From the IMG/VR virus record IMGVR_UViG_3300012931_000014, positions 1 to 36,073 of that record: a stretch of 36,073 nt of DNA; one strand, given 5' to 3'. Position numbers and translations under genes: made by a program. The stretch is from a virus. How positions within the stretch are numbered: position 1 is the first letter of the stretch; each line of letters begins with the position of its first letter. The notes under the pieces are model-generated. The model saw nothing but the letters and a program-made list of their open reading frames with translations. It was not told the origin of the DNA and did no database searches. Shown here piece after piece: positions 2,455 to 34,074 of the stretch.

Positions 2455-2703
2455 CTATTTAAATAATCTATCCCATAGTGCTATCAAGACACTTGCAGGG
2501 TTTCTTTGCCGGTTCTGTTCAACCTCAAAAGATGTAGGGAACTTCTCCCGAGCCGCTATTTCTATCTTCCTGCTTTTAATAGTCTTCCCCGATTTAAAAG
2601 AGTGCCATAATTGCTTACTGACCCCCAAATACTTGGAAAATCCATAGTCGCTTAATTCTAACCCTTCCTGCTTTTGCTTTAGTTGCTCAAGTAAATTATT
2701 CAT
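2455..2703 (-). CDS. Cro/CI-type helix-turn-helix DNA-binding protein
   Basis: An 82-residue protein. Residues about 17-50 fit an XRE/Cro helix-turn-helix: SDYGFSKYLGVSKQLWHSF followed by KSGKTIKSRKIEIAA, with the hallmark pattern of a first helix, a short turn at LGVS and a recognition helix. The start overlaps the upstream HTH-HNH gene by ATGA, so the two are co-translated from the leaderless-looking promoter at 3210-3238. It is the best candidate to bind the four 22-base spaced repeats at 3220-3296 and set the early genetic switch. Whether it is the repressor or the Cro-like partner cannot be told from sequence. Confidence 0.75.
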   Translation of the reverse strand: MNNLLEQLKQKQEGLELSDYGFSKYLGVSKQLWHSFKSGKTIKSRKIEIAAREKFPTSFEVEQNRQRNPASVLIALWDRLFK

Positions 2704-3203
2704 ACTATAAACCCCTTCGGTATTAATTCCTTAAATCCTGCTCCCCAACCATGTGTCTCGGCAAGCCATAAACCTTGGCAGTGTTTTGTGCAAAAGAATA
2801 ATCCTGACTTATTATTTTTAATTCTTCGTTCTCTTTTGGACTTTGGGGGATAAAATAAAATCCCACATTGAGAACATATTAGAAATCTTATTGTATACCT
2901 ACAAGAGGGGTATGGCTTCTTTTTATTTAGATATAAATGACAAACCCTGCACAGTAATTGTAAGTTCTTTATGTTATTTAAAATATTATATTTATACTTT
3001 ATATGATGTATGTGTCCAGATTCTCCAACCAATGCCCCGCACGAATTACATTTATAATCATACATTTCGTAAATTTCTCTGCGTAATTTATTAGAGGGGC
3101 TAACGCACTCTTGAATATATTGCCGACTAACATTATATTTCTTAGCTATATCGGAGTAACTAAGCCCCTTGCTTTTTTCTTTTACTATTAATTTTAAATC
3201 CAT
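2700..3203 (-). CDS. HTH-HNH endonuclease-like protein, first gene of the early operon
   Basis: 167 residues with three visible parts. Residues 5-40 form a sigma-region-4-like HTH (GLSYSDIAKKYNVSRQYIQE). Residues 46-90 form an HNH zinc module: CNSCG, then GHIHHIKYKYN, then LLCRVCH. The C-terminal part has another zinc-type set: CSQCGILFYPP and FFCTKHCQGLW. The ATG at 3203 lies only 6 bases from the -10 box at 3210-3215 and has no ribosome binding site, so translation is probably leaderless. HNH proteins with an HTH are often homing or packaging-associated nucleases. Its place as first gene under the switch promoter is unusual, and it could also act as an autoregulator. Confidence 0.75.
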   Translation of the reverse strand: MDLKLIVKEKSKGLSYSDIAKKYNVSRQYIQECVSPSNKLRREIYEMYDYKCNSCGALVGESGHIHHIKYKYNILNNIKNLQLLCRVCHLYLNKKKPYPSCRYTIRFLICSQCGILFYPPKSKRERRIKNNKSGLFFCTKHCQGLWLAETHGWGAGFKELIPKGFIV

Positions 3204-3209
3204 ATACGT

Positions 3210-3308
3210 ATAATAGCACTTATTTTACTAAATTGCAATACTTATTTTATCAATACGCAAAATATATTTTACTAAGGTATTGATTATTTTACTAAGTAGT
3301 GTTACTAT
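3210..3308. promoter_or_regulatory. Divergent promoters with four 22-base spaced operator repeats
   Basis: Minus-strand promoter: -35 TTGCAA (3233-3238), 17-base spacer, -10 TATTAT (3210-3215). Plus-strand promoter: -35 TTGATT (3280-3285), 17-base spacer, -10 TACTAT (3303-3308). Four copies of a TTATTTTACTAA-like sequence start at 3220, 3242 (variant TTATTTTATCAA), 3264 and 3284, so they sit about two helical turns apart on one face. Copy 1 fills the minus-strand spacer and copy 4 overlaps the plus-strand -35. This is a classic switch layout. The promoters are fitted by eye. Confidence 0.75.
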
Positions 3309-3338
3309 TAATTAGACTAATAAAAGGAAGGTAAAAAA

Positions 3339-3671
3339 TTGGAATCACAAAAAGAGTTAGATATCAAGCACCCTATTATGAACAAGCCTTTACCTACTAT
3401 ATTGGATGAGTTGGAAGCGGCAATTCTCAGGGCAGAACTGGCAGCACAAAAAGCCGAAGAGCACAGCGGAGAAGCCAAAGATTATGCCGACAAGGCAAAA
3501 GAAGCCGCATCGAGAGAAGTTAAGGAAGCTATCAAGGCGTTACTCCCCGACATCTTGAACGCCCAAGCAACCGCCGATAAGGGGCTACAGATTGCCAATC
3601 TAGCCAATAATAACGCTACAAAGGCACTGTGGACTATACCGCTGACCTATTTACCCAACTCAAGGATTTAA
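3339..3671 (+). CDS. Coiled-coil protein, probably frameshifted at its 3' end
   Basis: TTG start at 3339 with AAAGGAAGG 7-15 bases upstream. The first 95 residues form a long amphipathic helix rich in Ala, Glu and Lys (ELEAAILRAELAAQKAEEHS; EVKEAIKALLPDILNAQATA). After about residue 97 the sequence changes character (WTIPLTYLPNSRI) and stops. Another frame then carries the natural-looking continuation (DLFTQLKDLRDEFRDF). A single-base indel or a recoding event near 3615-3645 is likely. It is the first gene of the plus-strand unit facing the early operon. The function is unknown. Confidence 0.6.
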   Translation: MESQKELDIKHPIMNKPLPTILDELEAAILRAELAAQKAEEHSGEAKDYADKAKEAASREVKEAIKALLPDILNAQATADKGLQIANLANNNATKALWTIPLTYLPNSRI

Positions 3672-3790
3672 GAGATGAGTTCAGAGACTTTGCGGTTACG
3701 ATTGTAAACGGATTATCAGACTTCGGCGCCGGGATAGTTGCCAGTACTAAGTTTCTGAAAATGAAAGCTCCGGAAGAAAAGAAGGAATAA
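3629..3790 (+). CDS. Out-of-frame continuation of the coiled-coil gene, or small overlapping gene
   Basis: This frame is open from just after two stop codons at 3608-3613 and reads VDYTADLFTQLKDLRDEFRD from the GTG at 3629, ending KFLKMKAPEEKKE. The helical heptad character resumes that of the upstream ORF, and the stop lies 2 bases before the next ATG. I see no canonical slippery heptamer at the crossover. A weak AAGG lies before the GTG, so independent initiation is possible. The coding potential looks real; the way it is expressed is open. Confidence 0.45.
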   Translation: MDYTADLFTQLKDLRDEFRDFAVTIVNGLSDFGAGIVASTKFLKMKAPEEKKE

Positions 3791-3792
3791 CA

Positions 3793-4017
3793 ATGAAGAA
3801 CTTTATAACCTTTGTAATATTGGCTTTCACCACAACCTTAACCGGCTGTCTGCTGGCTATGTTTATTGACGCTGCCTTAAATGGGATGGTTTATACAATG
3901 AATATCAATCACTACGGGGAAGGGTTAATCGAAGTAGTCCTTATAGCTGTAGTCTTTTTGGTTGGTTTCATCTGGACTATTAAGTACCTGGTTGATTCAT
4001 TTAGGAGGGATAAATGA
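3793..4017 (+). CDS. Small membrane protein with two spans, 74 aa
   Basis: An N-terminal hydrophobic span (residues 4-27) contains LTGCLLA, which resembles a lipobox with Cys19. A second span lies at about residues 46-68 (VVLIAVVFLVGFIWTIKYLV), before a charged tail (DSFRRDK). It could be a small lipoprotein-like or plain two-span membrane protein. Its end overlaps the next gene by 4 bases (ATGA). The function is unknown; membrane genes beside lysogeny switches sometimes act in superinfection exclusion, which is only a suggestion. Confidence 0.65.
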   Translation: MKNFITFVILAFTTTLTGCLLAMFIDAALNGMVYTMNINHYGEGLIEVVLIAVVFLVGFIWTIKYLVDSFRRDK

Positions 4018-4196
4018 AACAACCCAATAATATTAATGAAGTATTAGCAAAATTAAATAATGTAATCCAAGTGGATAAAGATATGTGGGAGGCAGACTGT
4101 CCATGTCCTGGCAGACCTCATAGGATGTTAGTTATTGATAATGGCGATAGGATAGTTCCTATTTGCTTAGGTTATAAAAATAAAGGAGGAGAATAA
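4014..4196 (+). CDS. Small Cys-containing hypothetical protein, 60 aa
   Basis: The start is coupled to the upstream membrane gene by an ATGA overlap. The centre reads WEADCPCPGRPHRMLVID and continues to PICLGY, giving a CxC...H...C cluster that could bind zinc, somewhat like an isolated zinc-finger edge of a primase-type domain. No catalytic domain is present. The stop directly precedes the next ATG (TAAATG). Confidence 0.6.
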   Translation: MKQPNNINEVLAKLNNVIQVDKDMWEADCPCPGRPHRMLVIDNGDRIVPICLGYKNKGGE

Positions 4197-4286
4197 ATGA
4201 AGAAAGTAATAGTACCCAATCATACTGGCTCTAATGATGTCCTGTTTTGCCATTACACCGTGTCTGGAAGGGGATTAGATGAGTAA
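4197..4286 (+). CDS. 29-aa hypothetical peptide
   Basis: ATG at 4197 follows a strong AAGGAGGAG site. The reading is MKKVIVPNHTGSNDVLFCHY, ending TVSGRGLDE. It overlaps the methylase start by 8 bases, so it may serve mainly as a translational lead-in for that gene. There is no recognisable fold. Confidence 0.5.
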   Translation: MKKVIVPNHTGSNDVLFCHYTVSGRGLDE

Positions 4287-4857
4287 TAAGAAATACCAGA
4301 TTATATATGCAGACCCACCGTGGAAATACAATGTTTTTAGTGATAAGCCACCTTGTAGCAGGAAAGCAGAAGAAGCTTATTACGAAACGATGGATTTATT
4401 AGATTTAGCAGATTTGCCTTTATGGGATATTGCTGATGAAAACTGTGTTCTTTTTATGTGGTCAACTTACCCAGCCCTACCCATCGCCTTGAAACTCATC
4501 AATAAATGGGGATTCCATTATCGGACAGTTGCATTTACATGGGTAAAGAAAAACAAAATATCAGACTCTTGGTTCTGGGGAATGGGTGGATGGACAAGGG
4601 CAAACGCCGAGATTTGCCTATTGGCTACAAAGGGAAACCCAGTTAGAAAATCAAAGTCCGTTCATTCAGTTTTGGATGATAGAATTACTAATCATAGCGA
4701 AAAACCTGAATCAGCCCGTCTAAGAATTATTGAACTCATGGGCGACTTGCCCCGTATCGAACTCTTTGCCCGCCGCAAAGTAGAAGGCTGGGACTGTTGG
4801 GGTAACGAAGTAGAAAGTGATATAGAATTAAGTGAGGTTATAAATGGATTAATTTGA
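4279..4857 (+). CDS. MT-A70 family adenine-N6 DNA methyltransferase
   Basis: 192 residues, close to the usual size for phage members. The catalytic DPPW sits at residues 12-15 (YQIIYADPPWKYNVF), with a later FMWST strand, the FTWVKK and GMGGWTRANAEICLLATKG block, and the C-terminal RIELFARRKVEGWDCWGNE that is characteristic of MT-A70 proteins (Ime4/ParB-linked type). It would transfer a methyl group from S-adenosylmethionine to adenine N6, probably on phage DNA to escape host restriction. No restriction endonuclease partner is adjacent. It is the last gene of the plus-strand unit. Confidence 0.9.
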   Translation: MSNKKYQIIYADPPWKYNVFSDKPPCSRKAEEAYYETMDLLDLADLPLWDIADENCVLFMWSTYPALPIALKLINKWGFHYRTVAFTWVKKNKISDSWFWGMGGWTRANAEICLLATKGNPVRKSKSVHSVLDDRITNHSEKPESARLRIIELMGDLPRIELFARRKVEGWDCWGNEVESDIELSEVINGLI

Positions 4858-19420: not shown

Positions 19421-19449
19421 GGGTAGAAAAAAGAATTATTTTAATAAAC

Positions 19450-20533: not shown

Positions 20534-21103
20534 TTAAATTCTCATTTTTTCTTGAAGTTGTTGAGTCAACTCTTTTACTTGCCACTTGAGTAACCGTATC
20601 TCCGTTCTTAACTCACAATGAGAGCACATGCTCTTATAGATAGCATGATTTTTAGGCGATATGAGTTCAAGATTTTCAATACGGTTATCATTTCGAACCC
20701 CATTTTTATGATGGACATGTTCTATTTTTAGAAGACGTCTGCCAAGGTGCTGTGCCATTATTAAGCGATGCTCAAGAATGCTTCCTTTCCCATTAGACAT
20801 ATTATAAAACGGGTCTTCTGGATATATCGGAATACAATTATATCCATGACAATTGTATTTACCGCCTTGCCAATTAGGATTTTTATTACCACGGAACGAT
20901 AGTGAACTTTTGCGCTTATGCTCTTCACTATACTCCCTGCCCTTTTTGGAACAAGAATTACAAAATTTAAATTCTGGGGTTCCTTTTATAAAGCGAACCC
21001 AGCGTTCTTTTCCACAACGTTCGCAAGCTGCCCAAATGCGACGGTTCTTACTATTAATTAAATCTAATGTTTTGCTACTTACTATTTCCCCTATTTCTGG
21101 CAT
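20534..21103 (-). CDS. HNH homing-type endonuclease
   Basis: I set the start at ATG 21103, which overlaps the zinc-ribbon stop (TAATG); a longer reading to 21154 runs inside that gene. The 189-residue protein has CERCGKERWVRFIKGTPEFK, CNSCSKKG, a GNKNPNWQGG linker typical of homing enzymes, then the HNH core EHRLIMAQHLGRRLLKIEHV, HHKNGVRNDNRIENLEL, and H170-type NHAIYKSM. A coiled helix ends it. Placed between capsid and decoration genes, it looks like an inserted free-standing homing endonuclease. Confidence 0.8.
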   Translation of the reverse strand: MPEIGEIVSSKTLDLINSKNRRIWAACERCGKERWVRFIKGTPEFKFCNSCSKKGREYSEEHKRKSSLSFRGNKNPNWQGGKYNCHGYNCIPIYPEDPFYNMSNGKGSILEHRLIMAQHLGRRLLKIEHVHHKNGVRNDNRIENLELISPKNHAIYKSMCSHCELRTEIRLLKWQVKELTQQLQEKMRI

Positions 21104-21222
21104 TATCTCTGCCCTCGCGGAATGTTCCAATAGGGGCTTTTGCACTTCGGGCAAACTTTCGGATTCTTAATTCTGGCAACCCATGAATGAGAACACCTTT
21201 GGCATTTGCAAGTTGTTAACAT
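21103..21222 (-). CDS. 39-aa zinc ribbon mini-protein (copy 1 of 3)
   Basis: ATG at 21222 follows GGAGGTTATAAA. The product is MLTTCKCQRCSHSWVARIKN, followed by PKVCPKCKSPYWNIPRGQR: two CxxC knuckles 16 residues apart and a CPKCKSPYW end. It closely matches the products at 29825-29944 and 34383-34520. Translation is coupled to the HNH gene (TAATG). Zinc binding is inferred from the four Cys; the partner is unknown. Confidence 0.75.
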   Translation of the reverse strand: MLTTCKCQRCSHSWVARIKNPKVCPKCKSPYWNIPRGQR

Positions 21223-24555: not shown

Positions 24556-27222
24556 TCAAAAGGTTTTAACACCCTCTGTCTCATAAATGGACATTTTGGG
24601 TTTATTAGAATGGCGGACAGCTCTATCCAATGCCATGCACAGACTTACTACTCCATCGATGCGCTGAGTAGCCTTAGATTTATCCGGTTTGATATTCCCC
24701 GCCGGATCCTGAGCGATGACAGCTGAGTCAGCATTCCACCTTAAAACTGGGTTATCGCCATGTTCTAACTTTCCGGACAATAAGGTGTCCATAAACCCCT
24801 TGGCTGCAGGTGACATACTTACATATCCTTGTCGGAACTGGACTAATAAGGGATGCCCGTCGCGTTTGTCTTTCTCATTGATAACAAATCCGTCATCCTG
24901 TAAATCTGTCAGGAGTTTAACAGTCCCCCATGGGTCATAAGCAAGTTCTTGCATATCGAACATTGCCCGGTCATCGTTTAACTGTTTTCTGATATAGGCA
25001 TAATCGATAAGATTACCTGGGGTCGTCTGGACATATCCCTGATGTACCCAGCGGGCGTATGGCACTCTATCGTGTTTTTCTTTTTCAGCGGCCATATCCG
25101 CGGGAATCCAGTAGCGCATTAGAACTTTGAATTTATCATCTACAGGGAAGACATGTGCAAGAGCGGTCAAGTCCCCACTACTTGAAAGGTCAAACGCTGA
25201 ATAACATCTTTTTCCTTTTAATTCTTCAATGTCCACCTTGCCGCCGCATTTATCCCAGTCTATTAATTTAATCCAGCGTGTCGATTGTTTTACCCAGATA
25301 TTAAGACGTAACTGCTTAAATGTGTTTTCTTCTTCGATTTTACGTTGCGCTTCCCTGAAAGCGTCACGGACTTTATCAATCTGAATTGTATGGCCTAAAG
25401 AGGGATTGACCTTGTACCAGTTCTCTTCGTTGGTCCAGTCCCAGTCAGTACCGGCTTCGTCATCCGGCGGACCGTAAATCACAGGGTAGAATGTCGGGTC
25501 TTCAATGGTTTCGTTTAGAATAGCCCTTGCTTTCTCGTGCAGTTCCCAACAGACAGAGTTTCTATCTATCCCCGCTGTTGTTATGATAAAGAATAAAGGC
25601 TGGCGCCTTGCATCCCCCGAGCCTTTGGTTAATACTTCATATAGTTTTCTATTTGGGTGAGCGTGCAGTTCATCGATGACTACACCGGAGACGTTAAGTC
25701 CGTGTTTTGTATTTACTTCTGAAGATAGCGTCTGCATAAAGGAATTGTCATTTATTAGCCAGATTCGCTTACGGGAATCATTAACCTTGCAACGTTTTGA
25801 TAGCGCCGGACTAAACCGTATCATCTGAGCAGCTGCGCCATAAACGAGCCCCGCCTGATCTTTGTCGGCGGCCGCACAATAAACTTGGGCGCCGGGTTCG
25901 TTATCTCCAAAAAGCAGGTAAAGCCCGACAGCGGCGGCCATTTCTGTATTATGTGTCGGAACCATGCCTTCGCCAGCCAGATACAAGTGAGAATAACTGT
26001 CAACTTGAATACATTTTACAGGTACGGATTCGACTGGATTGACGGCAACTATTTTTCTGAAGAAGTTTCGGGGGTATTTAATAGGTAGCAGTTTTTGACG
26101 TTCTAGTTTGCGTTTTAACTTAAAAACAGGGTTACCTTGATATGCCCAGAACTGAATCCTATATTTTAACCCGCAATCTTTACCATATAGTCTAGCCGTC
26201 TCTGCTTTGAATGACCGTTTAAATCCCAGCGTAATCAATAACTCTAATACATCAGATGCTATTTGCGATTCCGTGGTGGTGAATTCGCATTGTCCAGCCT
26301 TCGAAACATAACCATCCGAATCCATTAAACCCTGTAATAGTGATAGTCTTTGCTGATAGGATGCCCTTAGATATGAGCTAGGGATATGTTTATTATTTAA
26401 GAGGTTAGAATCACGCAAAGACCCAATAAGGGTAGGTCTCCCATTATGATTAGCCGTTCCGATTGGTGATAGAGATACCCGTACATCGAATGTACCAGGG
26501 TGTCTCGCATCCTTTTTAGGAACGGTAGTATAGTATCCAGCGTTTTCTACTTGAGCAACAAAATTGTAATAGTCTGCCTCACTCATAGTGAATTCAGCAT
26601 CATCATTCCTACCATCACCAAGCCAATAACCCAAAATATAAGGGTCAATCGGTAATGTGGCACTAGGAAGTATTAATGGTAAAGGATTAGCTATCTTATG
26701 ATTATGCCCGTTCTGATAGGCGAGCGTTTCGGCAATTTCCTTTGTGGTGTGTAATTTTGTTTTCAACCAAGGTTTATAAGTCGAAGTCAGCCATAAATGG
26801 GATTCATCCGCAATAATCTTGCTGTCATCTTCGAAGACAACCTCATAACACGGGTGACCGTATTGAATTCTGGTTGCATGGGTTACGCGACAAGTGTGAC
26901 CCTGTTCATCAAATAACTCATCACCCAGTTTAACTTCACCCATAGTAGTCCATCCGGATGGTGTAGGTAATGGAGTATCAAGTGCCAAAGCTTTACCGTT
27001 TTTCTTGGGGATCTCGATGTATACCGTGTTATATTGTCTGTATCCGTCTTCCCTGATAGTCCCGAATACATCACTAATAATCTTATGCTGCCACGGAAGG
27101 AGTTCGAACTTTCTACCTTTCCATTCACCAGTGGTAAGTTCTAAATTTTCTATGAATCGGATTGCCCTGTCCGCTTTAGCCTGACTGAATAGTGGTTTTT
27201 GGATTTCTATTTTAACGGGCAT
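24556..27222 (-). CDS. Large terminase subunit, split by an intein
   Basis: 888 residues; 540 remain after removing residues 78-425. The exteins give Phage_Terminase (PF03354-like) features: ELLPWQHKIISDVFG, Walker A PKKNGK|TEMAAAV reconstructed across the intein, Walker B VVIDELHA (D517, E518), and nuclease acidic residues in YSAFDLSSSGDL (D678), ELAYDPWGT (D763) and QRIDGVVSL (D856). It packages DNA and cuts it. The intein sits exactly between GK and T of the P-loop, so no ATPase can form until splicing. It follows the small terminase by 19 bases. Confidence 0.95.
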   Translation of the reverse strand: MPVKIEIQKPLFSQAKADRAIRFIENLELTTGEWKGRKFELLPWQHKIISDVFGTIREDGYRQYNTVYIEIPKKNGKALALDTPLPTPSGWTTMGEVKLGDELFDEQGHTCRVTHATRIQYGHPCYEVVFEDDSKIIADESHLWLTSTYKPWLKTKLHTTKEIAETLAYQNGHNHKIANPLPLILPSATLPIDPYILGYWLGDGRNDDAEFTMSEADYYNFVAQVENAGYYTTVPKKDARHPGTFDVRVSLSPIGTANHNGRPTLIGSLRDSNLLNNKHIPSSYLRASYQQRLSLLQGLMDSDGYVSKAGQCEFTTTESQIASDVLELLITLGFKRSFKAETARLYGKDCGLKYRIQFWAYQGNPVFKLKRKLERQKLLPIKYPRNFFRKIVAVNPVESVPVKCIQVDSYSHLYLAGEGMVPTHNTEMAAAVGLYLLFGDNEPGAQVYCAAADKDQAGLVYGAAAQMIRFSPALSKRCKVNDSRKRIWLINDNSFMQTLSSEVNTKHGLNVSGVVIDELHAHPNRKLYEVLTKGSGDARRQPLFFIITTAGIDRNSVCWELHEKARAILNETIEDPTFYPVIYGPPDDEAGTDWDWTNEENWYKVNPSLGHTIQIDKVRDAFREAQRKIEEENTFKQLRLNIWVKQSTRWIKLIDWDKCGGKVDIEELKGKRCYSAFDLSSSGDLTALAHVFPVDDKFKVLMRYWIPADMAAEKEKHDRVPYARWVHQGYVQTTPGNLIDYAYIRKQLNDDRAMFDMQELAYDPWGTVKLLTDLQDDGFVINEKDKRDGHPLLVQFRQGYVSMSPAAKGFMDTLLSGKLEHGDNPVLRWNADSAVIAQDPAGNIKPDKSKATQRIDGVVSLCMALDRAVRHSNKPKMSIYETEGVKTF
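25948..26991 (-). mobile_element. Intein with LAGLIDADG endonuclease, class 3 features
   Basis: 348 residues (78-425 of the terminase). It begins ALALDTPLPTPSGW, with Ala instead of the usual Cys/Ser. Block B has DESHLWLT with Trp144, block F has VPVKCIQVDS with Cys404, and block G is VPTHN with Thr423-His-Asn425, then extein Thr. This Trp-Cys-Thr set and the non-nucleophilic first residue define class 3 inteins. Two LAGLIDADG motifs are intact: LGYWLGDGR (197-205) and LLQGLMDSDG (295-304). It should both splice and home. Confidence 0.92.
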
Positions 27223-29058: not shown

Positions 29059-29436
29059 TTATTTTTTAATTTTCTTTCCGAACCCACCGTTTTCCAGTGC
29101 GGTCTTCTTTGAATGACACGAGGTACATAGTGATTGCCAGTTCCCCTCATCCCACATCAAAGTATAATCACCACAATGAGGGATAATATGGTCAACAACC
29201 GTAGCGACTGTAACGCGCCCTTCTTTCTGGCACATAACACATAGCGGGTATTGTGCAAGGTAGAACGCCCGTGCGTCTCTCCATCTCCTGTTATAACCCC
29301 GCTCCGCCGCCGTCCCCCGCTCCATATCAACCCTCTGGTTACGGGACTTCAAATGTTCAGCGCATAATCCCGAATATTCTACTGATAAATTCGGGCAGTT
29401 TGATATATGACAACCTGATATCGGTTTCGAGGGCAT
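29059..29436 (-). CDS. HNH endonuclease of the packaging module
   Basis: 125 residues: CHISNCPNLSVEYSGLCAEH, then RGYNRRWRDARAFYLAQYPL, zinc Cys pair CVMC (66,69), the DHIIPH motif (His83), NWQSLCTSCHSKK (C104, C107). This is the small HNH endonuclease commonly found upstream of P27-type small terminases, where it assists terminase cutting at cos in some phages. It is the first gene of the late block and has a GGGAGT site before ATG 29436. Confidence 0.9.
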   Translation of the reverse strand: MPSKPISGCHISNCPNLSVEYSGLCAEHLKSRNQRVDMERGTAAERGYNRRWRDARAFYLAQYPLCVMCQKEGRVTVATVVDHIIPHCGDYTLMWDEGNWQSLCTSCHSKKTALENGGFGKKIKK

Positions 29437-29502
29437 CTTGGTTTACTCCCATTAAAATAAAAGAAATTTAAAAATATATTTTAAAATAGTGCAAAAACCT
29501 AT

Positions 29503-29539
29503 TGACAATTGTTACCTGTAGATATATACTATAGGTAAT
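29503..29539 (+). promoter_or_regulatory. Strong sigma70 promoter with palindromic operator
   Basis: -35 TTGACA (29503-29508, consensus), 17-base spacer, -10 TATACT (29526-29531). A palindrome, TTACCTGTAG (29513-29522) and CTATAGGTAA (29530-29539), matches at 9 of 10 arm positions and covers the spacer and -10, so a dimeric repressor could silence it. It drives 29561-29944. Confidence 0.85.
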
Positions 29540-29560: not shown

Positions 29561-29779
29561 ATGAAAAATCTATTAGTAGCAACAATTAATCACAATGACG
29601 AGGACAGACGGATTAAAATTGTATGCCGGAAAGATGATGAGGGTTATTATCGCTGGTATGATGATGAGACAGACACAGAATCAGGATGCCACAAAGCTAA
29701 CAGCCTTGAGCAAGCCAAAGAATATGCGCTAGCTTGTTGGGGATCGGATGCTTGGAGTTTAAAGGCTAGCTGGCGTTAG
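29561..29779 (+). CDS. 72-aa hypothetical protein of a moron-like unit
   Basis: ATG follows AAGGAGGAG. The product is acidic (MKNLLVATINHNDEDRRIKI; RWYDDETDTESGCHKA) with an AKEYALACWGSDAWSLKASW end. It has no membrane span and no recognised domain. It lies on the opposite strand to both flanking operons and has its own promoter and operator, the pattern of a moron expressed apart from the lytic programme. The acidic character is reminiscent of DNA-mimic or inhibitor proteins, but nothing more can be claimed. Confidence 0.75.
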   Translation: MKNLLVATINHNDEDRRIKIVCRKDDEGYYRWYDDETDTESGCHKANSLEQAKEYALACWGSDAWSLKASWR

Positions 29780-29944: not shown

Positions 29945-30029
29945 AGAAAGCCCCGGCGATAACTTCGCATGGTATGAGGGCATAAATTATCACTATATAC
30001 AGGTAATTTAGCACCACAATCTTAAATTG

Positions 30030-30440
30030 TCAAGGTTTTAATGGATTTGGGGACATATCTGTCCTTTTATGCTTATACTTTCGATGTGATTTCCACTCTG
30101 CATATGTCTGTTTTCTTCTTTTCGGTCCGGAGCTGATATAATTTAAAACCCGTCGTGCCGGTCTTGATAACAGCTCATAATCCTCAATGCCAGACTGCAC
30201 CTCGTCTATAAGAGCTTCCCCGGCTTCCCCGGTCGTCTCTAATCTCTGCTCAAGTTCGGCTCTGACACATCCAGCACCCTCGAACGGAGCTGCATAGCGG
30301 CGTGTCCGACTTCCACCGACATACCCAGTCTCTACCGGCTCAATCGGCCACATACCAGCTTCAAGCGGTAGAACATCACTGATCATCCAGATGCACTGGC
30401 CGCGGTCGAAGATTATTTTCCCTGGCGACCACCAGGTCAT
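30030..30440 (-). CDS. Hypothetical protein, 136 aa
   Basis: N-terminus MTWWSPGKIIFDRGQCIWMI, then a Pro/Glu part (MWPIEPVETGYVGGSRTRRY), an acidic helical part (CVRAELEQRLETTGEAGEAL) and a basic tail (KRRKQTYAEWKSHRKYKHKR). There is no recognised family. Its start overlaps the upstream gene by ATGA. It is the last gene of the early block, and its base composition is clearly richer in G and C than its surroundings. Confidence 0.7.
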   Translation of the reverse strand: MTWWSPGKIIFDRGQCIWMISDVLPLEAGMWPIEPVETGYVGGSRTRRYAAPFEGAGCVRAELEQRLETTGEAGEALIDEVQSGIEDYELLSRPARRVLNYISSGPKRRKQTYAEWKSHRKYKHKRTDMSPNPLKP

Positions 30441-31641: not shown

Positions 31642-32010
31642 TTATACCTCGCTCGATTCCAGTTCCTTGATTTTGGCTTTCAAATAGAGCTTGATTAATT
31701 CCCTGTCTGTCTTTCCGTTATATCTCCCCCTTGCTTTCACCAGGTCGTACCTTTCCTGTCCCAGTTTCTTAATCATAAAATCTTGTTCATATTCGTCATT
31801 TTCCTCAAAATACTGATGGCATCCGAGACAAACCGAAATACAATTATCTTCATCCCAGCGCGTCGATAGCTTTCTTCGATGATTTATAGCGTGATGACAA
31901 TGTAGCCCCCTCCTGTCTGGGGTAGAACCACAGCGCTCACATTTCCAGCTCGCTTTCATTCTGATATATCGACTGAACAATAGATCTAAAGAATCAATTC
32001 TAACTTTCAT
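31642..32010 (-). CDS. HNH protein, NinG/Rap-like
   Basis: 122 residues: SLDLLFSRYIRMKASWKCER with CERCG (zinc), then GLHCHHAINHRRKLSTRWDE, DNCISVCLGCHQYFEEN, and a long helical end. The order FSRYIR-CxxC-HH-RWDEDN-CxxCH recalls the lambda NinG (Rap) recombination endonuclease more than homing HNH enzymes. Placed in the early operon near the ATPase, it may process recombination or replication junctions. It could also be a generic HNH protein. Confidence 0.75.
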   Translation of the reverse strand: MKVRIDSLDLLFSRYIRMKASWKCERCGSTPDRRGLHCHHAINHRRKLSTRWDEDNCISVCLGCHQYFEENDEYEQDFMIKKLGQERYDLVKARGRYNGKTDRELIKLYLKAKIKELESSEV

Positions 32011-32028: not shown

Positions 32029-32475
32029 CTAAAACTCTCCTGCTTCATGCATTAACTGGTATGTAGATTCTAATTTTTCAACCCATTCTTTATGTGCCGG
32101 AATACAAGATGGATTAGTAGCTACGTGTGCTATCTCATATATGTCGAGCAAAAAACGAAGCAAAAGATTAGTGTTAGCATCTTTAATTGGATGTAATTGT
32201 AAATCATCTATGAAAGTGTTATTTTCTATCATCGCTTCTATAACCAATAATGCCTTATCTTTAGTTCCAGTTTCTAATAATAATGTCTTATCATCCGAAC
32301 AATCTTCATCCTGTAGAATGACTACGTTGGGAATGTTTAATATATTATCCACAAATCTTTTTGCTGATTTTCTGTCTAAAGCAATAACATCTTGATAACC
32401 CTCTCCGTTTATACCTGTTGATGATGTCTGCAATAAAAGTGTTATCTGTTCTATTGTCTGTTCTTTACTATTCAT
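32029..32475 (-). CDS. Hypothetical protein, 148 aa
   Basis: An acidic, helix-rich protein: MNSKEQTIEQITLLLQTSST, VVILQDEDCSDDKTLLLETG, IEAMIENNTFIDDLQLHPIK, LRFLLDIYEIAHVATNPSCI. No catalytic motif or membrane span is visible. It is flanked closely by a coiled-coil gene and the NinG-like gene in the early operon, so a replication or host-takeover role is possible but not shown. Confidence 0.65.
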   Translation of the reverse strand: MNSKEQTIEQITLLLQTSSTGINGEGYQDVIALDRKSAKRFVDNILNIPNVVILQDEDCSDDKTLLLETGTKDKALLVIEAMIENNTFIDDLQLHPIKDANTNLLLRFLLDIYEIAHVATNPSCIPAHKEWVEKLESTYQLMHEAGEF

Positions 32476-32829: not shown

Positions 32830-34074
32830 TCATATAATACATAGCCCCCACTTCCCTGAATCCAGTTTGATAATCTCGTTTTTGTCTTTTAACCTTTTAA
32901 GAGCCACCCTGGCATTGTTATTTGTGATAGATAAAGCATCTTGAATTTCCTGTGTTGTTTTAATACCATCTTTTAGGAGGTCTTTAATTTGAGCTTGTGT
33001 TCCCAACGCCGATAAAAATTCTCCAATAGACTGTGGGGAACTTCCACTAATTATGGTTTTGTTATCTATTTCGCCGTCCCCTTTAAATTCCATGTGCAAC
33101 CCCATTGGTTTATGAAGTCTGGTAAATGGAGCCGGTTTGCGATGGAATAATGCTATATCCATTTCGTTTGAGTCTGCCTCTTGTGATTTTTTAATCTCCC
33201 AGATTGACCGGGCTTCTGCTGTATAATAAACATTCCCGTAGACTGATTTCTTTTTGTCCTCGCTTTTTGCTGTATGAGCTAATATCAAACTGGTTGTTTT
33301 AAGTTTTCTCCATGCTGTCCAAAAATTAAGTGCTGGCTCTGTTAAATTCAAATCACCCCCGGCGGCTAACCCCAGGCTATCGATTATCACCACTTCTGCT
33401 TTGCTTTCTATAACTTTCCCTGAGATTTGTTCAATATCATAATTCAGTGGGGAGCTACAACGTAAATAATTCAAAAATAATGGGGGCAGATTCATCCCCC
33501 TTTGAATACAGGAAAGTGACCATCTTATAGTCGATTCGTCGGTCTCCCAATCCAAGTAAAGTATTTTGATTGGCTTACTTGGGACTGCCCATTCAAAAGG
33601 GTTGTCGTACCAGGGCAAAATCATAAGAACTGAAAGTATCAAGGCAAATAAACTTTTAGATGATGACGGGTCGCCAAAGATTATAGTCGGATAATTACGT
33701 ATTATAAAAGGATGTATCAAAAATTCCGGGGGAGTAGCGGTTCCATCGTCTGTATTTATTTCTATAATTGATTCTCCCCGTCTGAACTTTTCAAGGGTAT
33801 AGACACAGACTTGTTCGAGGATTGCCCCCCAATCCGCCTCCAAACGTTTATTGAGGATACTGGCTAATCTATCCCTTGTAACACCGGATGAGAAATTAAA
33901 ACTAGCCTGATGTAGATGTCCTGAGGATACACCCGGAGATGTAGAGGAGATAACTATCTCACCTTTTAACTCCTGTGAATGCAAGGTGAGTCTACGGCAT
34001 TCTATTCGTATATTTTCATTTTCCCAATAATAATCATATCCGCCAACCACGTCTATAACTTTAGGAAGGCTCAT
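32830..34074 (-). CDS. RepA-like AAA/RecA-type ATPase with C-terminal winged helix
   Basis: 414 residues. Walker A is FGDPSSSKSLFA (134-141 core), followed by ILYLDWETDE, Walker B VVIIDSLGLAAGG (228-232), and a LILAHTAKSEDK sensor segment, as in hexameric RepA (RSF1010-type) or AAA_25 helicases. The last 65 residues (IKDLLKDGIKTTQEIQDALS, VALKRLKDKNEIIKLDSG) form a winged helix able to bind DNA. With no polymerase or primase in the genome, it is the best replication initiator or helicase-loader candidate, next to the GTTAC array. Its start overlaps the previous gene by 4 bases. Confidence 0.85.
   Translation of the reverse strand: MSLPKVIDVVGGYDYYWENENIRIECRRLTLHSQELKGEIVISSTSPGVSSGHLHQASFNFSSGVTRDRLASILNKRLEADWGAILEQVCVYTLEKFRRGESIIEINTDDGTATPPEFLIHPFIIRNYPTIIFGDPSSSKSLFALILSVLMILPWYDNPFEWAVPSKPIKILYLDWETDESTIRWSLSCIQRGMNLPPLFLNYLRCSSPLNYDIEQISGKVIESKAEVVIIDSLGLAAGGDLNLTEPALNFWTAWRKLKTTSLILAHTAKSEDKKKSVYGNVYYTAEARSIWEIKKSQEADSNEMDIALFHRKPAPFTRLHKPMGLHMEFKGDGEIDNKTIISGSSPQSIGEFLSALGTQAQIKDLLKDGIKTTQEIQDALSITNNNARVALKRLKDKNEIIKLDSGKWGLCII

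Follow-up and report, generated by a model that had tools for sequence, protein, structure and literature searches.

A putative direct-repeat operator array between divergent promoters of a tailed phage

Gene organization around the divergence point

The record analysed here (hereafter the window) is 36,073 bases long and carries tailed-phage genes, including those for terminase, portal, protease, capsid and tail proteins. It is linear, without end repeats, and may be incomplete. Nearly all genes are on the minus strand, apart from a short cassette (3339-4857) and one gene at 29561 on the plus strand. Because the cassette starts where the minus-strand genes turn away, gap 3204-3338 is a main divergence point of phage transcription.

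To the left of the gap, an operon runs from 3203. Its first gene (2700-3203, minus strand) encodes a 167-aa protein composed of an N-terminal HTH followed by an HNH nuclease (PF01844, above the cut-off). The second (2455-2703, minus strand) encodes an 82-aa Cro/C1-like HTH protein and lies about 500 bp down the operon, its start overlapping the stop of the HTH-HNH gene in an ATGA. Small genes and an exonuclease-family protein follow. Two paralogous 42-aa genes (MKVKIKKDF.../MKIKIKKDF...) are located near each other at 1846-1974 and 2290-2418; they have the two strongest Shine-Dalgarno pairings among the ORFs compared.

To the right, the cassette opens with a 110-aa coiled-coil-like protein (3339-3671, plus strand), which has a TTG start and a good Shine-Dalgarno sequence, AGGAAGG. 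A small membrane protein, a small protein and an MT-A70 methyltransferase come next. In region 3339-3790, the 110-aa ORF ends in one frame, and a different frame, open from 3629, continues the coiled-coil-like sequence (DYTADLFTQLKDLRDEF...). Either two genes overlap here, or a frameshift or sequence error is responsible.

At least three more HNH-type reading frames were found by sequence, at 20534-21154, 29059-29436 and 31642-32010, so that this phage is rich in HNH genes. By reading, the terminase large subunit (24556-27222) bears an intein-like insert. The terminase of contig L002 is 80% identical to it over 880 aa, insert included.

Relatives were searched for with the HTH-HNH, 82-aa HTH, coiled-coil, AAA, MT-A70, capsid and terminase proteins as well as with the DNA motif described below. 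None of the viral, genome, phage and plasmid collections yielded a relative that carries the gap region, and neither the region nor its regulators were matched in the phage and plasmid collections. Three contigs (L002, L003 and L061) are related through their head genes, with about 50-84% identity in portal, capsid or terminase; none of them spans the gap region. HTH-HNH matches in PHROG are generic HNH families. The matches obtained in the genome collection are distant proteobacterial capsids. Among annotated genomes, PV036453 has the most closely related portal; its layout differs. Our view of the repeat array rests on its anatomy, its statistics and known precedents.

A repeat array in the gap

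The gap contains four copies of a 12-base sequence, TTATTTTACTAA, all on the plus strand and in the same orientation. Putative operator copies 1 (3220-3231) and 4 (3284-3295) are perfect. Copy 2 (3242-3253) reads TTATTTTATCAA, with two mismatches, and copy 3 (3264-3275) reads ATATTTTACTAA, with one. An earlier note on this DNA had placed repeats at these four positions; their coordinates were verified. It had also described a 22-base spacing on one helix face. The start-to-start steps are 22, 22 and 20, so that the spacing is exact for the first two steps but not for the last one. Under random placement, regular spacing by itself has a p value of about 0.009. The helical phase of the copies is approximate, and the shared face by itself is weak (p ~0.066).

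Dinucleotide shuffling of the 135-bp gap produced a four-copy set with so high a score in 0 of 1000 cases, and four copies at any score in 3 of 1000. With Markov models of orders 0, 1 and 2 trained on the gap, the corresponding counts were 0, 1 and 5 of 1500, and no set among these had regular spacing. The array is thus beyond chance for DNA of this composition. Across the rest of the window, scanned every 45 bp in 135-bp stretches, no comparable score and no other set of four copies was found. A weight matrix derived from the four copies ranks the same four at the top of the window, as expected for training copies; the next-best match, at 19436, scores clearly lower. Two further candidate copies, at 3177 (two mismatches, within HNH coding sequence) and at 3309 (three mismatches), were rejected as no better than background. 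An Rfam search for structured RNA gave no match.

Identity between copies amounts to 87.5% in the cores, 29.6% in the spacers and 35% in the upstream flanks, for a composition expectation of 33.6%. Cores are alike while spacers and flanks are at chance, which points to selection on the core rather than to recent tandem duplication. Tandem duplication was therefore rejected as the origin of the repeats. Judged from sequence, a conserved core within random spacers is the signature of a binding-site array.

Inside the core, a partial dyad involves 8 of 12 positions in copies 1 and 4 and 6 of 12 in copies 2 and 3. This internal dyad is too weak for the core to be called a palindrome. We consequently rejected palindromic operators, of the kind found in lambda, as the primary reading, and direct-repeat operators are the better one. 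A 14/16 palindrome, GCAAAATATATTTTAC (3257-3272), overlaps copy 3; by estimate, it is not beyond chance.

Predicted promoters and a probable leaderless mRNA

Two divergent promoters are predicted in the gap, both by consensus match only. The leftward one (3210-3238, minus strand) reads TTGCAA-17-TATTAT, with its -35 at 3238-3233 and its -10 at 3215-3210. The rightward one (3280-3308, plus strand) reads TTGATT-17-TACTAT, with its -35 at 3280-3285 and its -10 at 3303-3308. Both have a TG-extended -10. Transcription would start at about 3203 leftward and at about 3315 rightward. When promoter-like sites on both strands of the window were ranked by means of approximate sigma-70 matrices, the minus site came 4th and the plus site 23rd. 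A stricter 9-of-12 consensus scan recovered the minus site and missed the plus site, and its total was close to the shuffle mean. Both promoters therefore stay predictions, their activity being what we infer from the consensus.

The end copies of the array coincide with these two independently ranked promoters. Copy 1 is located within the spacer of the minus promoter (3216-3232). Copy 4 covers the last two bases of the plus -35, then the first half of the plus spacer. Both placements agree with those proposed earlier.

Since the minus -10 ends at 3210, the expected +1 at about 3203 is the A of the HTH-HNH ATG. This gene also has the weakest Shine-Dalgarno pairing among 55 ORFs (-1.6 kcal/mol); the pairing of the first rightward gene is good (-9.8). 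A leaderless mRNA would explain both the position of the start and the missing Shine-Dalgarno sequence, and the HTH-HNH mRNA is probably of this type. The lambda cI mRNA is leaderless (PMC4965119). As at lambda PRM-cI, a promoter with its +1 on the AUG would lie alongside an operator array in a divergent region, here as a prediction. In contrast, the lambda operators are palindromic, and the leaderless gene here would encode an HTH-HNH nuclease, not CI.

Comparison with direct-repeat operators

Precedents exist among repressors that recognise asymmetric sites. The P2 C repressor recognises a pair of 8-bp direct repeats, operators O1 and O2, at the early promoter, their centres lying 22 bp from each other (PMC4752584). 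The gap likewise has direct, non-palindromic repeats with a centre-to-centre step of about 22 bp on what would be an early promoter, recognised by consensus only, with a small phage HTH protein as candidate binder. A low-confidence model of this 82-aa protein aligns to P2 C (2xcj) with a Z score of 3.9, on a par with HigA and 434 Cro; a sequence search of the PDB with the 82-aa protein gave no match. The two P2 repeats flank a single -10, whereas here four 12-bp repeats span two divergent promoters. Moreover, an HNH nuclease gene precedes the candidate repressor gene here. Another repressor with non-palindromic sites is Pf4r, which is P2 C-like (PMC8402870).

Rco of plasmid pLS20, a member of the Xre family, recognises multiple copies of an 8-bp motif over divergent promoters; within each operator, most of them lie on the same strand (PMC4207663). 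Its operators O_I and O_II share with the present array the multiple copies of an asymmetric motif, the prevalence of one strand, the divergent promoters and a TG-extended -10. Cooperative binding was demonstrated for Rco and would apply here by extension. With Rco, the DNA loops between two operator clusters separated by 75 bp, and the genes under control serve conjugation, whereas a single array of four adjoins phage genes in our case. By analogy, the present arrangement would work like the P2 C, Pf4r and Rco systems.

Direct-repeat operators had been described as uncommon for CI-like repressors. This holds for lambda CI but is overstated in view of P2 C and Rco. Direct-repeat phage switches are already known, and the present array is sound but ordinary. 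Few direct-repeat operators are on record for phages, and the array is a clean candidate for another one. No relatives of this phage were found for the region, and the nuclease gene next to the array is predicted to be leaderless.

The region had also been likened to a genetic switch. A direct-repeat array over divergent promoters is indeed the best reading, but a lysis/lysogeny switch is not supported, given that the operators are non-palindromic and that neither an integrase or recombinase match nor a CI was found. Specifically, no PF00589 (tyrosine integrase) or PF00239 (resolvase/serine-recombinase) match and no recognisable CI-type repressor is present in the record, which may be a fragment, so that these absences carry little weight.

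Proposed control by the 82-aa protein

The chances appear about even that the four repeats are operators through which the co-transcribed 82-aa Cro/C1-like protein limits its own expression (negative autoregulation). The repressor docking on the four repeats would be a small HTH dimer, most likely this second product of the leftward operon. It would occupy them cooperatively, in steps of about two turns, on one side of the DNA. Bound at copy 1, it would hide the leftward spacer; bound at copy 4, it would hide the rightward -35 and spacer. Both promoters would be repressed, including the one driving the repressor's own gene. Copies 2 and 3 would link the two promoters and make repression cooperative. 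The binder, its cooperativity and the sign of regulation are what we infer from this layout.

The 82-aa protein is the likeliest repressor. A single-sequence prediction (pLDDT 66) gives six helices with a Cro/C1-type HTH. Its fold matches are HigA, 434 Cro/repressor, SinR and P2 C, all tied at Z scores of 3.9-4.5. The match is weak yet consistently of the Cro/C1/HigA type. A Pfam search with the protein matched no family.

The HTH-HNH protein could itself be the repressor, its N-terminal HTH binding the repeats and silencing its own promoter. This is possible, though unlikely. Its gene is the first behind the leftward promoter, the array overlaps this predicted endonuclease promoter, and an HTH is predicted at residues 3-34 (block pLDDT 68-87) with weak HTH_28/HTH_23 matches. 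However, these matches fall under the Pfam cut-offs, and the fold past residue 35 is predicted too poorly for a structure search. In HNH proteins that carry an HTH, the latter normally serves cleavage-site recognition. The HNH motif looks intact by reading, so that the protein's own operator would need to resist cutting; in addition, a dedicated small HTH gene comes immediately after. The documented precedent is I-TevI, which represses its own late promoter (PMC2988022). There too, a phage endonuclease gene is directly behind a promoter with possible operator sites, but I-TevI is a GIY-YIG enzyme, is intron-borne and has one operator resembling its homing site. That the HTH-HNH protein, made from a leaderless mRNA, would bind the array and repress both promoters, a homing-type nuclease then acting as early-region repressor, seems to us quite improbable. 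If the nuclease does regulate, endonuclease autorepression would extend from T4 introns to a phage control region.

A regulator from the host, or one encoded outside the window, is an unlikely binder as well. Examples would be a repressor encoded on phage DNA absent from the record, or an activator that works from copies 2 and 3. The possible incompleteness of the linear record and the lack of a clear CI among the window genes are consistent with it, but two HTH genes sit in the operon driven from the gap, which is the usual layout of local autoregulation.

We regard it as very unlikely that the repeats are replication iterons, forming an origin bound by an initiator. Plasmid iterons do have a similar size and spacing, and the repeats are AT-rich (79%) with steps of about 22 bp. 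Against this, no recognisable initiator gene adjoins the gap, the AAA replication-type gene being at 32830-34074, and no DnaA box (with at most one mismatch) is present in the gap, the sole perfect box of the window being at 32345. The GC-skew change at the gap tracks the few plus-strand genes, and copies coincide with promoter elements. Least probable of all, the repeats would not be protein sites but would make the promoters stronger as AT-rich upstream elements or as phased, DNA-bending T-tracts: each copy has a T4 tract and the phase is roughly helical, but identity runs beyond the tract through ACTAA in three of the four copies, flanks of equal composition are unconserved, and copies 1 and 4 are inside the promoters, not upstream.

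A second operator-like motif

A second, unrelated operator-like motif, TTACCTGTA[GT]ATA, is found at 29512 and 29994. It is shared by the two top-scoring promoters of the window (29502-29538 and 29985-30035), which read TTGACA-17-TATACT on the plus strand and TTGACA-17-TAAATT with a TG on the minus strand. The first of these sites forms a near-palindrome, TTACCTGTAGATATATACTATAGGTAA. The presence of the motif in the two best promoters together with this near-palindrome makes a second operator class likely. TTACCTGTA[GT]ATA could equally be the site of the 82-aa protein.
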